From contig NZ_AP019781.1 of assembly GCF_019669965.1 (NCBI RefSeq), positions 496,001-560,000 on the forward strand: a DNA stretch of 64,000 bases, read 5' to 3'. The position numbers and the translations under genes were made by a program. Positions 55,987 through 60,892 of the stretch are shown piece after piece. Position 1 is the stretch's first letter. Each line of letters begins with the position of its first letter. This stretch comes from Methanoculleus chikugoensis. GTDB lineage: Archaea; Halobacteriota; Methanomicrobia; Methanomicrobiales; Methanoculleaceae. The notes below the pieces were generated by a model. The model was not told where the DNA came from and searched no databases. It worked only from the letters and a program-made list of their open reading frames with translations.

Positions 55987-56283
55987 ATGGCAAACCGCGA
56001 GATATCGGTCAACATCCCCGGCAATCTCGACCCGGTCTACTCCAACCGCATCCAGATTGCCTACAAGGAGGACGAGTTCACGTTCCTCTTCCTGCACGAG
56101 ATCCCCGGCATGAACCAGGCGCGGGGGAAGGCAATCGTCTCGATCAGCCCCCGGCACGCGAAGAACCTGGTGGAGGTGCTCGCGAAGAGCGTCGCCGACT
56201 ACGAGCAGAAGTTCGGCAAGATCACCTCCCCGGAGGCCGCTGCGCAGCAGGAGAGCAACGTCACCATCCGGGGGTACTCCTGA
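55987..56283 (+). CDS. small DUF3467-like protein
   Basis: A 98-residue protein beginning ANREISVNIPGNLDPVYSNR, with a β-rich centre (IAYKEDEFTFLFLHEI) and an amphipathic C-terminal helix (AKNLVEVLAKSVADYEQKFG). It matches the DUF3467 family as I remember it (small proteins, also in bacteria, of unknown role). ATGs at 55978, 55981 and 55987 are close; I chose the one that gives the usual N-terminus. Nothing suggests a link to the divergent Cas4-like gene beyond neighbourhood. Confidence 0.8.
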   Translation: MANREISVNIPGNLDPVYSNRIQIAYKEDEFTFLFLHEIPGMNQARGKAIVSISPRHAKNLVEVLAKSVADYEQKFGKITSPEAAAQQESNVTIRGYS

Positions 56284-56356
56284 GCGGGACCGTGCCGGCG
56301 GGCCCCCGGCAGGTGATACCTTTTTAATTGCGGAGGTGCAACATTCTAAGGCAGTT

Positions 56357-56428
56357 GCCGCTGTGGCTTAGTGGTATAGCGGCTGATTCGTAATCAGCAG
56401 GCCGGGGGTTCGAATCCCTCCAGCGGCT
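56357..56428 (+). tRNA. tRNA-Thr (anticodon CGU)
   Basis: A complete cloverleaf: acceptor GCCGCTG/CAGCGGC with discriminator T, D-arm GCTTAGTGGTATAGC, anticodon stem GCTGA/TCAGC around loop TTCGTAA, and TΨC stem GGGGG/CCCTC with loop TTCGAAT. There is no intron or encoded CCA. It marks the left border of an A+T-richer accessory region, but I see no second copy of its 3' end further right within the window. Confidence 0.97.
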
Positions 56429-56689
56429 TCTATTATTCACGTTTAATTCCTTCGGGCAATCCATATATGGTTTTTTCCGATCACAATGTGTGCTGAACTT
56501 AGTCGTACCAATAATCGATACAAGAAACGCACTGCGACAAACGATGTGAAGGGGTGGGGTGTTCCCCCTGCGGTCCCTGTAAGAATTGAGAGATTGCGTT
56601 TCTCTGGGATATATTTGAAAGGCATACACCAAGGCATTAAAGAAACTGGAAATAAACAGATATTCAAGGTAATAAGTAAGTGATGGGAT
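56429..56689. other. A+T-rich gap after tRNA-Thr
   Basis: No supported gene. The base composition drops sharply relative to the rest of the window. A 65-codon frame (56486-56683) has no recognisable features and no ribosome site, so I do not call it. The region probably carries the left flank of the accessory segment. Confidence 0.4.
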
Positions 56690-56971
56690 GTGTACAACGA
56701 AAATCGTGATAAAATTCTCTTAATTCTCGGTGCAATAGTTGCTGTGCCTATTATCTACCTTTTATCGTCTATGCGTGGGGGTCTTGCCGAAGTATTCTTC
56801 AGTGCTGTTGATACATTCTTTGAGAAATTGGGGATTCATGGATTTGGAAAACTCCTGTCTGCGTTGCTTGGTCTGGTGCCGCCTCTCCTGGAACTAGGCA
56901 TCGCGCTTCTCATACTCGCATTGATTGGAGCAGTCTTTTCACTCATATTAGATGCATTCCGAATTCGTTAA
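56690..56971 (+). CDS. small membrane protein, accessory region
   Basis: A 93-residue protein from a GTG start (VYNENRDKILLILGAIVAV). It has two hydrophobic segments, about 8-27 and 63-87, separated by a short amphipathic linker, and ends in a basic tail (LDAFRIR). I do not recognise the family. Codon and base use are A+T-rich like the two genes downstream. It precedes the serine-dehydrogenase-type protease by ~140 bases. A membrane partner or anchor for that protease is possible. Confidence 0.55.
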   Translation: MYNENRDKILLILGAIVAVPIIYLLSSMRGGLAEVFFSAVDTFFEKLGIHGFGKLLSALLGLVPPLLELGIALLILALIGAVFSLILDAFRIR

Positions 56972-57078
56972 GGAGCCCAAGCGAATAACCGCAGTTAATG
57001 GTGATTTCTTAAGTACTCGCCTCATCGGTTTTGCGATTTGACATAGTTCAGGACGTATAGTGCAGAATAAATCCACCA

Positions 57079-57089
57079 TCTTAATATAC
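57079..57089 (+). promoter_or_regulatory. TATA element before the SDH-type protease
   Basis: TTAATATACCG at 57079-57089 is a good archaeal TATA box. A transcript would start near 57108, three bases before the ATG at 57111, which argues for that start over the upstream GTG at 57060. Confidence 0.5.
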
Positions 57090-57110
57090 CGTTTTATCCA
57101 AGGTTCTCTC

Positions 57111-58217
57111 ATGACCTACGCCGAGAGGGTCGATCTCTACAAGCAGATTGAGGAAGAGCGTGAACGGCCGCTTATTACATACGTTACCAGTTCAAGACCG
57201 AATGCCGAAGGAATAATTGCTTCCGATGTTATTCCTGAAATCTGCCGGCAAATCCTCAAAATACCCCCTGATAAAAAGGAGATTGATCTCCTCGTTGTAA
57301 GTCGAGGGGGCGACCCAATTGTCTCTTGGCGAATCGTCAGCCTGCTTAGAGAACGGTTTGAGAGTGTAAACGTCCTTATACCCTATGAAGCCTACAGTGC
57401 CGCGACACTTCTTGCACTCGGAGCGGATGAAATTGTAATGCACCCGTTCTCTAATTTAGGGCCTGTAGATCCGCAGCTGCATGGAACTAAGAAGGTTCCG
57501 GGGTTACCAGGTCAGCAAGAAGAGGTCCGCTTTGGCGCCGAGGACCTTTCACACTTTCTCGACTTCGTCAGGAAAGATGTTGGTATCTCCGATCAAGAGC
57601 AACTGGAACGGGCTTTTGAACTCGTGTGTCAGGAAGTTGGTTCGATCCCGATAGGAATTGCAAAGCGAAGCTCGAACCTAGCGCTCTCACTCGGAGAAAA
57701 ACTTCTTCGACTGCATATGGGTGACCACACTAAAGTGAAGGCGATATCGGAAGCACTCAATAAATCATTCTATCATCACGGGTATCCGGTAGGACGGAAG
57801 GAAGCGAAAGAGATCGGGCTTGAAATCCTTGATGCACCTGAAGAGCTCGAAAAACTTATGTGGGCAGTTTGGGAAGACATTGAAGCGGAAATGAAATGCA
57901 GAGAGCCGTTTCAGCCGCATACAGTTGTAATGCAGGAGCCATCGTTTTCTCAACAGCCAGAACCCACCCAACAAATACAGGTGCCACCGGTTGGCCCTCC
58001 GCATCCCTCAGGGCAGTCTTTCTCGCCGATGATCCAAGGGGTTCAACCTTTAGGTGTTGCACAGATCGAGTATGACCTATTTCAGGCAACAGTGGAAAGT
58101 ACCCGCATGAGAAGCGAGTTTAAAACAAAGCTTAAAATAAGCGCAGTACGTATGTCGGACCTGAACATTAATATCAATGTAACACCAATTTCACAAGGCT
58201 GGAAAACACTTGACTAA
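57111..58217 (+). CDS. serine dehydrogenase-type (ClpP/SppA-fold) protease
   Basis: A 368-residue protein from the ATG at 57111. The SDH-proteinase family (PF01972) pattern is clear. VVSRGGDPIVSWRIV at about 62-76 forms the oxyanion region. EAYSAATLLALGADEIVM carries the candidate nucleophile S96. HPFSNLGPVDPQL follows at about 111-123; the family has A-L-A-A-D-E-I and L-G-P-V-D-P-Q here. The core ends near 250. A ~110-residue tail rich in proline and glutamine (EPSFSQQPEPTQQIQ) ends in an IAVRMSDLNININV-like strand. Members are cytosolic or membrane-associated serine proteases with few known substrates. It is followed by an 87-residue protein 18 bases later. Confidence 0.78.
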   Translation: MTYAERVDLYKQIEEERERPLITYVTSSRPNAEGIIASDVIPEICRQILKIPPDKKEIDLLVVSRGGDPIVSWRIVSLLRERFESVNVLIPYEAYSAATLLALGADEIVMHPFSNLGPVDPQLHGTKKVPGLPGQQEEVRFGAEDLSHFLDFVRKDVGISDQEQLERAFELVCQEVGSIPIGIAKRSSNLALSLGEKLLRLHMGDHTKVKAISEALNKSFYHHGYPVGRKEAKEIGLEILDAPEELEKLMWAVWEDIEAEMKCREPFQPHTVVMQEPSFSQQPEPTQQIQVPPVGPPHPSGQSFSPMIQGVQPLGVAQIEYDLFQATVESTRMRSEFKTKLKISAVRMSDLNININVTPISQGWKTLD

Positions 58218-58235
58218 GAAAAGGAGGTAGGGAAG

Positions 58236-58499
58236 ATGTACTCGAGGATTAGGAAATCGGACAGCAACGAGAGTATTATTAAATCCATGGGCCCATACCG
58301 CTTCCACTCCTCTGGAAATTCAATCGCCTCAGTGCAGAGTTCTGGTTCGTTCGGCCCGATTGGGACGATTACCATTGTCTCTCCCCTTCAGTACCCTATA
58401 CCAGAGGCGCGGGAAAAGGCACCAAAGCCTTCAAAACAGGAAGACTTCAGAATGCTCATGAAGAAAAATAAGAAAACCCTTGAGCTTCTAGCAAAATAG
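58236..58499 (+). CDS. uncharacterised small protein of the protease operon
   Basis: An 87-residue protein from the ATG at 58236, preceded by AGGAGGTAGG, a strong ribosome site. The first two thirds are polar (SDSNESIIKSMGPYRFHSSG) with a central FGPIGTITIVSPLQYPIPEA. The last third is lysine-rich (EDFRMLMKKNKKTLELLAK) and helical. No domain is recognised. Its position right behind the SDH-type protease suggests a substrate, adaptor or inhibitor, which is inference only. Confidence 0.65.
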   Translation: MYSRIRKSDSNESIIKSMGPYRFHSSGNSIASVQSSGSFGPIGTITIVSPLQYPIPEAREKAPKPSKQEDFRMLMKKNKKTLELLAK

Positions 58500-58500
58500 A

Positions 58501-58890
58501 TCAACAACCTTTTTTCGTGACAGAGCGTAGCCAAGTCTCGACTTCTTCCATTGTCTTTTTGCCCTCTGCAATGGCTCTTACGAAGCGGTCATTCTCCTCA
58601 TGAGAACTCACGGTCTCGTATCGTTCAGGGGTTCGGAGCAGGACAAGTGAGGCGAGTTGAAACGCTATCCGTTTATTTCCCTCGATGAAGGCATGCCCTG
58701 TCGCAAGACCGTGTAGAATAAATGCCGCTCTCTCAAATGGATCAGAGTAACCACTACTGAATTCAATGACAAAGTAGAGATTCCCGGGAGTGAGCAATTT
58801 ACCTTCCATTCCCCGATCCTCCTCGCGATCGCTCGCCAGGATGATCTCAATATGATAGCCGATAATCTCCTCGACCGTGAACTCTTCCAT
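58501..58890 (-). CDS. Doc/Fic-family toxin
   Basis: A 129-residue protein with the Fic/Doc catalytic signature GHAFIEGNKRIAFQ (HxFx(D/E)GNKR at residues 66-74; H66 is the general base). Length and motif are those of the Doc (death-on-curing) type, which modifies EF-Tu or other targets by phosphorylation or AMPylation. It is transcribed towards the protease operon and ends next to its stop. AGGAGA lies before the ATG. No recognisable antitoxin gene precedes it: only a short weak frame (58903-59043) is there. It may be a free-standing toxin or have lost its partner. Confidence 0.82.
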   Translation of the reverse strand: MEEFTVEEIIGYHIEIILASDREEDRGMEGKLLTPGNLYFVIEFSSGYSDPFERAAFILHGLATGHAFIEGNKRIAFQLASLVLLRTPERYETVSSHEENDRFVRAIAEGKKTMEEVETWLRSVTKKGC

Positions 58891-59075
58891 CAGGTTCTCC
58901 TGCTATGCCTCTATCCGAGCGCTGCGCCAGAAAGAATAGTGAAATGTTAACGGTACTCGTGAAAAAAGGTTGTTGATTGGTGTACCGTAAATATCGATAT
59001 CTGTAGATAAGATCCCAGTGACATCGGCGAAGATATCTTCCAGGTTGACTGCCAAGTTACCTCTGACCCGAAACC

Positions 59076-59257
59076 ATGGCAAGCAACACCGGCCCCCTGC
59101 CCCTCCTCCCGGCATCGTGTTTGTCCCGCACCTCCCGGCAGCACGCTACTTCTTCATTGGATCGGCACTCACAGGGTTCGGCACCGGGACGCTCGGCCTG
59201 CTCCTCTGCGCCCTCGGGTGCTCTCCACCGGCTTTGCCACCGCGAAGCCAGGAGCGA
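59076..59257 (+). pseudogene. frameshifted small membrane protein, copy 1
   Basis: About 180 bases align with 60692-60881. The common protein frame reads GIVFVPHLPAARYFFIGSAL then FGTGTLGLLLCALG, a two-helix membrane protein, but start and end are in other frames. The ATG at 59076 leads to a frame out of register, and the 3' part (CCACCGGCTTTGCCACCGCG) is shifted again. It is therefore a broken copy. Confidence 0.55.
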
Positions 59258-59359
59258 AACCGCTGTTCTCCGGCCGTTCCCGGCGATGGGATGGTGAGCA
59301 GGCTCTGTTATTCTGCCAGATCCTTCAAAAAAGTCTTCTTATATCGGCAATGGACCATG

Positions 59360-59560
59360 CTATCGCTTCTTCATCTGCGCATAGCACCGTTGCGCCCCAT
59401 TGAGCGAGTGGGTTTCTTCCTCCTCGACCTCTTCCATTGAGAGCGCGAGCCCGCAGTCTTCGAGGAGTTCCTCGATCTTCTCGAAGGCTTCAATGTCAAG
59501 AACGACCCCGATCTTCCTGTCGTTGTCGGTTACGATGTATTGCCGCTTGATATTGATCAC
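59360..59560 (-). CDS. RelB/Phd-like antitoxin, orphan
   Basis: A 66-residue protein from a GTG start (INIKRQYIVTDNDRKIGVVL), preceded by AGGAGGTGGC. The pattern INIKRQYIVTDN-x-RKIGVVLDIEAFEKIEELLED is that of archaeal RelB-like antitoxins with a β-strand-helix DNA-binding part and a C-terminal toxin-binding tail (ETHSLNGAQRCYAQMKK). No toxin gene follows on the same strand; downstream lies the broken copy 1. The upstream part of its frame, in G/C-rich sequence, is not coding. Confidence 0.7.
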   Translation of the reverse strand: MINIKRQYIVTDNDRKIGVVLDIEAFEKIEELLEDCGLALSMEEVEEEETHSLNGAQRCYAQMKKR

Positions 59561-59734
59561 CGCTTGCCACCTCCTGCCGTTCTCTCGCCTATACGGGTGT
59601 CCTGGGGGAGTTGAACGATAACTGTCGAGGTGTTCCGGTGCTCTGCCGCATCCGGCCGGACGGGGCGAGGGAGGGTGACGCCGATTCCTGTTCAAAATGA
59701 GAACTTTGCCTTTCTACACATCATACCGGGCTTT

Positions 59735-60343
59735 TCAGAACAGCCACTCCCAGATCCTCATCCGGTAATACTTATTGATACTGATATTGGGATCCCCATC
59801 GAGCATCCGGCTCACCCGCATCTTCATCTTATACGATTTCTTAACCTTCAGGAACGTCTTGCTGAAGAGCGTGTTGGAGGACATCACCTGGTTGAGGTAG
59901 CTGTACTGCTCCTTTATCGATTCCAACTTCAGGCCGGCCGAAATCTCGTCGCAGTCTTTCGATCCCACATCCCTGAACGTATGACAGTCCCGTATGAAGT
60001 CCGTGAAGATCTTCACTCCCTGCTCGTTCCTGTTCAGGGTCGCAGTCAGGTTCAGTATCTTATCGGAGAATGAGATCACAAATATCAGAAAACCCAGGAA
60101 TGCAATCACGTTTCTCGTGTCCTGCTGGTCGTGGAAGGGAAGCGACAGTGAAATCAGGATGTCCGGATCTACGATACTCAAGAACGCAATGGATGCCGAG
60201 AACAGTAGAATGGCTAATGACAGGCTGGTTGAGATCCATTTGTACTTTCTATACTGGTACGCACAGATCTCCCTGGACAGACCGGCCTTGTCCGCTAAAT
60301 TATTAACCTCGTTGATGCAGTCTTCTACGGTTTTCCCGCTCAT
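59735..60343 (-). CDS. two-helix membrane protein resembling SLATT effectors
   Basis: A 202-residue protein from the ATG at 60343. An N-terminal amphipathic part (EDCINEVNNLADKAG) is followed by two transmembrane helices, about 37-57 (WISTSLSLAILLFSASIAFL) and 77-94 (NVIAFLGFLIFVISFSD). A long charged helical C-terminus follows (TATLNRNEQGVKIFTDFIRDC and on). The layout, two helices then a long cytosolic helix, is that of the SLATT domain found in CBASS and related conflict systems. This is a fold-level resemblance, not a confirmed match. No cyclase (SMODS) or SLOG sensor is adjacent in the window. Confidence 0.5.
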   Translation of the reverse strand: MSGKTVEDCINEVNNLADKAGLSREICAYQYRKYKWISTSLSLAILLFSASIAFLSIVDPDILISLSLPFHDQQDTRNVIAFLGFLIFVISFSDKILNLTATLNRNEQGVKIFTDFIRDCHTFRDVGSKDCDEISAGLKLESIKEQYSYLNQVMSSNTLFSKTFLKVKKSYKMKMRVSRMLDGDPNISINKYYRMRIWEWLF

Positions 60344-60691
60344 TGGAGTTCCTCGCAGTTGCAATTAATCGTCGACGAATGCGGTTTGGATTGCTTCAGG
60401 AGCGCTCTATCCGGAATTAGCATATTGGGGCGTAACGGCAAACCCTGCTGAGAAAAAATCGTGTAAACAAGCGGCGGAATCGATACCTCCGCCGAAGAAA
60501 AGCAGGCACCGTTTTGACATCGTCAGACCATGTAAAATGGTCGATTAATTGGATATATATGTTCTGGAACTTCTTTGCCCCCCATCGGTTCTGTAATTGG
60601 TTATCTGCCGTATCAGGTCCGGCAGGATTCAACCTCTACCGACAGGCCGGCAAAAAAACAGATGCTACATCCCACTCCTGATCTGATATCC
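60344..60691. other. gap between the SLATT-like gene and pseudogene copy 2
   Basis: No supported gene. A short frame on the minus strand (60417-60632) lacks a ribosome site and recognisable residues. A GGCGG/CCGCC-type hairpin surrounds ATCGATA near 60480. The sequence ATTAATTGGATATATATG (60543-60560) is a TATA-like element without an obvious gene after it. Confidence 0.35.
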
Positions 60692-60881
60692 ATGACAAAC
60701 GAAACCGGTACGGTGGCCATCCCCCTCTCTCCTCGGCATCGCGTTCGTGCCGCACCTCCCGGCGGCACCTTACTACTTCATCGGATCGGCACCGACGGAG
60801 TTCGGCACCGGGACGCTCGGCCTGATAATCTGCGTCCTCGGGGTGCTTCTCGCCGGGTTTGCCACTGCAAGGAGGGAGTGA
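60692..60881 (+). pseudogene. frameshifted small membrane protein, copy 2
   Basis: The ATG at 60692 starts TNETGTVAIPL. After a CTCTCTCCTC stretch the reading frame must shift by one base to continue as LGIAFVPHLPAAPYYFIGSA, TEFGTGTLGLIICVLGVLLA and GFATARRE, then a stop at 60879. Two hydrophobic helices are evident. It is paralogous to copy 1 at 59076-59257. A sequencing error could also explain the single shift here. Confidence 0.6.
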
Positions 60882-60892
60882 AGGCCGACCCC

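Follow-up and report, generated by a model that had tools for sequence, protein, structure and literature searches.

A ClpP-fold protease, a two-part small protein and a Doc-family gene that recur together in archaea: a possible protease-linked toxin-antitoxin module

The genome of Methanoculleus chikugoensis, a single-contig, 2.62-Mb methanogen, contains a tRNA-Thr gene that is directly followed by a short A+T-rich stretch. Do the genes of this stretch form a functional set, and if so, which of them belong to it? We examined these questions in a window of 64,000 nt, by which we mean the whole stretch of DNA analysed. The original prediction for the locus had proposed an operon of three genes, encoding a two-helix membrane protein, a serine protease and an 87-residue protein, as a plausible defence or stress module next to toxin genes. 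The features discussed below, in window coordinates, are the following.

56357-56428, + strand: tRNA-Thr(CGT), left border of the variable site
56690-56971: two-helix ORF, the membrane protein of the original prediction
57081-57088, + strand: TATA-like box TTAATATA, 22 nt upstream of the protease ATG
57111-58217, + strand: SDH-type ClpP-fold serine protease of 368 aa, nucleophile S96 (by PF01972, a 62-sequence alignment, AlphaFold2 and Foldseek)
58236-58499, + strand: C87, a bipartite protein of 87 aa, with an N-terminal GPY half (protease companion) and a C-terminal helix (Doc partner)
58428-58493, + strand: residues 65-86 of C87, helix DFRMLMKKNKKTLELLAK, the predicted Doc-neutralising segment
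58501-58890, - strand: Doc/Fic-family gene, 129 aa, motif HAFIEGNKR (TIGR01550, PF02661)
59360-59695: RelB-like/Phd-like gene, about 470 nt upstream of the Doc gene
59735-60364, - strand: SLATT-like two-transmembrane protein (PADLOC CBASS '2TM effector' models at 6e-19)

A variable site at tRNA-Thr

The G+C content, measured in 1-kb bins, drops from 0.65-0.69 before tRNA-Thr to 0.47-0.51 in bins 56001 to 59000, which bears out the predicted A+T-rich island directly past this gene. The tRNA was the sole match of the Rfam scan, and a search of the window for a second copy of its 3′ end found none, in line with the earlier remark that no att repeat is visible. Sequence homology with relatives (in the named records, members of Methanomicrobiales including Methanoculleus and Methanocalculus) ends at, or at most about 110 nt past, the 3′ end of the tRNA. 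Across the genus, the distance from tRNA-Thr to the next conserved gene ranges from 1.7 to about 36 kb, and by this comparison the site is a variable hotspot. The stretch that holds the module is either missing in relatives (0.7 kb in G072) or filled by other A+T-rich genes; the absence of the unit at this tRNA in relatives, a point raised in the original prediction, was thus observed. At the same tRNA-Thr in relatives (loci L190 to L192), an ATP-grasp-like gene, an HNH-like gene and a nucleotidyltransferase-like pair were recognised by sequence reading.

On the far side of the Doc gene, the SLATT-like gene adjoins the RelB-like antitoxin gene and has no visible nucleotidyltransferase partner. 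This pair is resident at the hotspot in many Methanoculleus-type relatives, with SLATT proteins 67-97% identical, and both genes were rejected as module members because they reside in relatives that have no module. The pair is bracketed by the two imperfect copies of a direct repeat, about 160 nt long (81%), at 59076-59262 and 60722-60882. The genome has no further copy, and several genus members also carry the repeat at this tRNA-Thr site; it may mark a cassette border or be what is left of a membrane protein's coding sequence. For the 187-nt repeat we also considered a structured RNA or an attC-like element, and rejected both because its fold was not unusual (z = 1.6).

An accessory protease distinct from the housekeeping one

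We placed the start of the protease gene at ATG 57111, not at GTG 57060, since relatives begin there and two of them (L032 and L033) share the TTAATATA box at equal spacing from the ATG. Its transcription is probably leaderless and, given that the box is kept in two relatives, the gene seems to have its own promoter. With this start, the LGPVDPQ motif and S96 were correctly called in the original prediction, S96 being invariant in 62 of 62 aligned relatives, as are S64-x-G66-G67 and D120. The protein reached 73.3 bits against PF01972, above the gathering cut-off of 31.3, and 75.9 bits against the NCBIfam equivalog NF047768 (SDH family Clp fold serine proteinase), under its cut-off of 250. Its AlphaFold2 model (pLDDT 89.3) has a C-terminal three-strand domain at residues 318-367, and the best solved folds found with it by Foldseek were ClpP and SppA, at E of about 1e-6; sequence searches of the PDB with the protease, C87 and Doc returned no usable match. 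Thus, the window protease shares the fold and serine motif of the SDH-type PF01972/NF047768 proteinases and passes PF01972, but differs from them in a C-terminal extension with ES.R...GW motifs and in an obligatory small companion.

Could it simply be an ordinary SDH protease paralogue with a housekeeping role, next to genes unrelated to it? Membership in PF01972, and the presence of a protein of this family in most genus members, would fit such a reading. However, the housekeeping protein of these genomes is a separate gene of about 300 aa, represented in the window's genome by L002, which scored 71 bits against a profile of the accessory branch, versus 241-495 bits for accessory-branch proteins. 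The accessory protease is moreover patchy, mobile and tied to a companion, so that it is not a core gene at this site, and we consider the housekeeping reading very unlikely.

The two-helix ORF fared differently from the other parts of the original prediction. It was found in 1 of 150 genomes of the order, namely its own, with no relative in the others, and was absent from all related protease loci. As the ORF has no relatives and the protease has its own promoter-like box, the three ORFs do not make up one operon, and the two-helix ORF was dropped as an operon member. That the membrane ORF, protease and small-protein genes all point one way was the point in favour of a membrane-linked defence operon; the missing relatives refute it as a conserved set and the box in front of the protease argues against joint transcription, which leaves that reading with hardly any probability.

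C87 and Doc in archaea

Protease relatives with 46-72% identity, intact or nearly so, were detected in 8 other genomes among the 150 of the order; one of these proteases is cut by a contig end and another has an in-frame TAG. The small gene downstream is real, as the original prediction held: C87 begins 18 nt past the protease with a strong ribosome site (AAAGGAGGTAGGGAAG-ATG). It converges with the Doc gene on the other strand, their stop codons being 1 nt apart, and the order protease, C87 and convergent Doc was found in 9 of 9 archaeal loci with an intact or near-intact protease (window included). Both the fusion and this order are kept from Methanomicrobiales to Methanomassiliicoccales, with proteases 42-72% identical. 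Hence the predicted recurrence stood for the protease and its small companion, joined by Doc in archaea, and failed for the membrane ORF; judged by gene order, the conserved third gene is Doc (58501-58890, - strand). The module had been described as lying beside toxin genes, and the tie to a toxin gene holds, except that Doc is a member of the module and more than a neighbour. The predicted module of a protease and a small companion is thereby borne out, and the unit is mobile. No description of the protease-C87-Doc set was found by family names in open-licence PMC literature, and the three-gene unit appears to be undescribed so far.

The Doc gene scored 47.8 bits against TIGR01550 (cut-off 38.65) and 39.6 against PF02661 (cut-off 24). 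By family, Doc is predicted to be a Fic/Doc enzyme that modifies a translation factor. Compared with the Fic motif HxFx[D/E][G/A]N[G/K]R, the window copy reads HAFIEGNKR, with Glu at the acidic position; its relatives keep the His, Asn, Lys and Arg, and most have Gln at the acidic position. No Phd gene was found directly upstream of Doc in the same operon at the window locus, the RelB-like/Phd-like gene upstream belonging to the cassette that resides without Doc in relatives. We surveyed Doc independently of the protease by fetching 30 loci from the 150 genomes, of which 26 had Doc copies with an intact HxFxxGNKR, some of them shortened or carrying a stop. A helix ORF on the other strand, with its end between -24 and +11 nt relative to the Doc stop, was present at all 26 (23 recognised by pattern and 3 by reading), so that Doc has the inseparable small partner by which type II toxin-antitoxin pairs are recognised; among Doc remnants without the motif, the helix was missing in 2 of 4. 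An intact protease lies upstream at only 8 of these 26 loci and is lacking at 18, with protease remnants still visible in several of the latter. Next to Doc, the same helix also forms the C-terminus of a HicB-like fusion in L148 and of a minimal protein of 47 aa in L157. A helix-turn-helix-like protein ending in HKATLDLLAK was also seen in L155 (G012), ORF 1498-1866 on the - strand, with no Doc within the fetched stretch.

In the AlphaFold2 model of C87, the N-terminal half is disordered and the helix at 65-86 is confident (pLDDT about 88); in C87-type proteins this helix follows the pattern DFRxLxxRHKxTLDLLAE. We trained a helix profile on Doc loci without a full protease only, and applied it to 73 protease loci with a downstream ORF in range. 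It matched 14 of 15 companions at Doc loci versus 0 of 58 at Doc-less loci (Fisher p 4e-14, for loci that are related and thus not independent); the exception, L093, has Doc together with a companion that the profile does not match. The N-terminal half, on the other hand, resembles the protease companions of bacteria: with a profile built from those, the window C87 ranked top among sequences outside the training set (E 0.044, 8,643 ORFs), and further high-ranking matches outside training were companions at frame-shifted protease loci. C87 therefore most likely combines the Doc antitoxin and the protease's partner in one fused protein. Some C87 copies have an SxxxEG-like motif in their N-terminus; we considered it as a possible Fic inhibitory motif and discarded the idea, since the window copy does not keep it. 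Read from the sequences, the gene set is conserved, C87 is bipartite, its helix goes with Doc and its GPY half with the protease, the protease has been lost repeatedly from loci that kept the Doc-helix pair, and the unit has spread horizontally.

Relatives in bacteria and prophages

A single-sequence query of one-per-species genomes gave no relatives of the protease, while an alignment query gave 110, from Bacteroidota, Chloroflexota, Acidobacteriota, Bacillota, Spirochaetota, Planctomycetota, Pseudomonadota, Methanomassiliicoccales and others; many of these genomes are metagenome bins and single taxon assignments may be wrong. Downstream of the bacterial proteases comes a short ORF, of about 55-100 aa and in some cases longer, and no Doc. 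A [G/S]P[YFH] motif was found in the downstream ORF at 38 of 72 loci, compared with 6% of control ORFs, and several of the motif-negative companions carry close variants; on a Chloroflexota plasmid, the annotated neighbour of the protease carries a GPF motif. In Rhodothermales (L103:7165-7617 and L115:7169-7621), one companion ORF has an RSPYE-type motif three times and looks like a multi-site substrate or binding partner. In the tree, the archaeal proteases linked to Doc form one or two clades within the bacterial sequences, and the proteases of one Chitinophaga and one Bacteroidales genome are almost identical (branches below 0.06), which we read as a sign of recent transfer.

A distant cousin with 30% identity was detected in Escherichia coli, with 241 bits to the accessory profile (housekeeping protein 71); of 5,426 genomes of this species, 47 carry it with 99% identity or more. 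Two records were read, and both place it in a lambdoid prophage, between holin and Q and on the opposite strand (L237:4998-6170), with its stop overlapped by a 59-aa ORF, ATGGATAA, that is not listed in RefSeq. Such a place is where phages typically carry extra genes that are active in the lysogen. A phage collection gave no match, and viral contigs gave two distant ones only. In the flanks of the other relatives, restriction genes of types I and II and integrases occur alongside many ordinary genes. PADLOC-DB 2.0.0 has no family for the protease or C87, and Doc had weak matches to candidate families only. The extra-gene location in E. coli prophages, the restriction and integrase neighbours of some relatives and the lack of a PADLOC family lend indirect support to a defence role, and a part in phage or stress responses is plausible.

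How the parts may work together

Most simply, the helix would be the Doc antitoxin and the GPY half would belong to the protease, so that C87 joins both systems. The sequences suggest a small protein that keeps Doc asleep, and a protease that can touch this brake. We propose, as a reading that stands a little short of an even chance, a mobile protease-linked toxin-antitoxin module in which the helix silences Doc, the protease acts on C87 and Doc is freed. The C-terminal helix of C87 would hold the toxin inactive, and its GPY half would partner the ClpP-fold protease of the same operon, probably as its substrate or regulator. In resting cells, C87 would be intact and Doc silent; upon a trigger such as phage infection or stress, the protease would cut or withdraw C87, and Doc, thus freed, would stop growth. 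These steps, from neutralisation and cleavage to trigger and outcome, are our inference; toxin release is probably under protease control. The MaOC1 orthocaspase supplies a precedent that supports this reading: it is encoded beside a ParDE-like toxin-antitoxin pair, cleaves the antitoxin and frees the toxin (PMC7935541). Several observations weigh on the other side. The protease is dispensable for the Doc-helix pair, as most such pairs live without it, and its first job was not Doc control, given the bacterial protease-companion units without Doc. Most homologs of Doc, a putative toxin, have Gln at the acidic position of the Fic motif, where the window copy has Glu, and L093 has Doc with a companion that the helix profile did not match. 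Convergent genes are, in addition, unusual among type II toxin-antitoxin pairs.

The main rival keeps Doc out of the protease's reach. Here the protease and companion would be the working unit, an anti-phage or stress effector with the companion as inhibitor, adaptor or substrate, and Doc would be an addiction device: loss of the companion frees Doc, the cassette is kept, and neither Doc nor its antitoxin is ever a target of the protease. We hold this to be a substantial possibility, if less likely than not. It fits the two-gene unit without Doc at about 58 bacterial loci, the distant cousin with its overlapping ORF in E. coli prophages, and the position of the Doc-linked proteases inside the bacterial radiation, where Doc may have been gained once or twice. 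Yet addiction alone would not call for a fusion between the antitoxin helix and the companion of the protease, and where a part has been lost, it is most often the protease that has gone and Doc that has remained. Rather unlikely, in our view, is a broader idea in which the protease and GPY companion form a general undescribed anti-phage or stress unit of bacteria, archaea and prophages, with the companion as sensor bait or substrate; the archaeal helix fusion would then make any cut of the companion fire Doc. The arrangement may also owe itself to chance, a Doc-antitoxin pair having landed by the protease in an archaeal ancestor and C87 being a read-through fusion that has no function for the protease. 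The protease-independent Doc-helix pairs at 18 of 26 loci agree with this, but the fusion and gene order persist at the wide protease divergence given above and both halves of C87 are conserved, and we judge chance distinctly unlikely.

Returning to the protease-linked toxin-antitoxin module, its parts resemble several known systems. Like Phd-Doc, the window has a Doc-family gene with a small partner that probably acts as neutraliser through its C-terminal helix; unlike Phd-Doc, no Phd stands beside it, the partner gene is convergent, stop to stop, and, in place of a DNA-binding domain, the N-terminal half of the partner is a protease companion. With MaOC1 it shares a dedicated protease gene adjoining a toxin-antitoxin pair, but MaOC1 is a cysteine orthocaspase, its toxin is of the RelE/ParE type, and the genes are co-located with no shared bipartite protein (PMC7935541). 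The predicted three-component COG2856 protease-Xre-RelE/PIN systems likewise combine a protease, a regulator or antitoxin and a toxin on mobile elements, and differ in their Zn-dependent protease and Xre repressor (PMC2701414). Sofic with AS1, a Fic anti-phage toxin and a small antitoxin, is similar in that a Fic-fold toxin has a short antitoxin encoded alongside, with an anti-phage function in Sofic; Sofic itself is a multi-domain Fic AMPylase and has no protease (PMC12249575).

The locus offers a readable case of a toxin-antitoxin pair wired to a dedicated protease through one small two-half protein, each half of which tracks its own partner over wide evolutionary distances. The orphan accessory proteases of the SDH family (PF01972) gain a near-constant and easily missed small partner, and the E. 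coli prophages are a laboratory entry to them. If the protease does release Doc, the module would allow protease-triggered abortive infection to be tested directly in archaea and bacteria.
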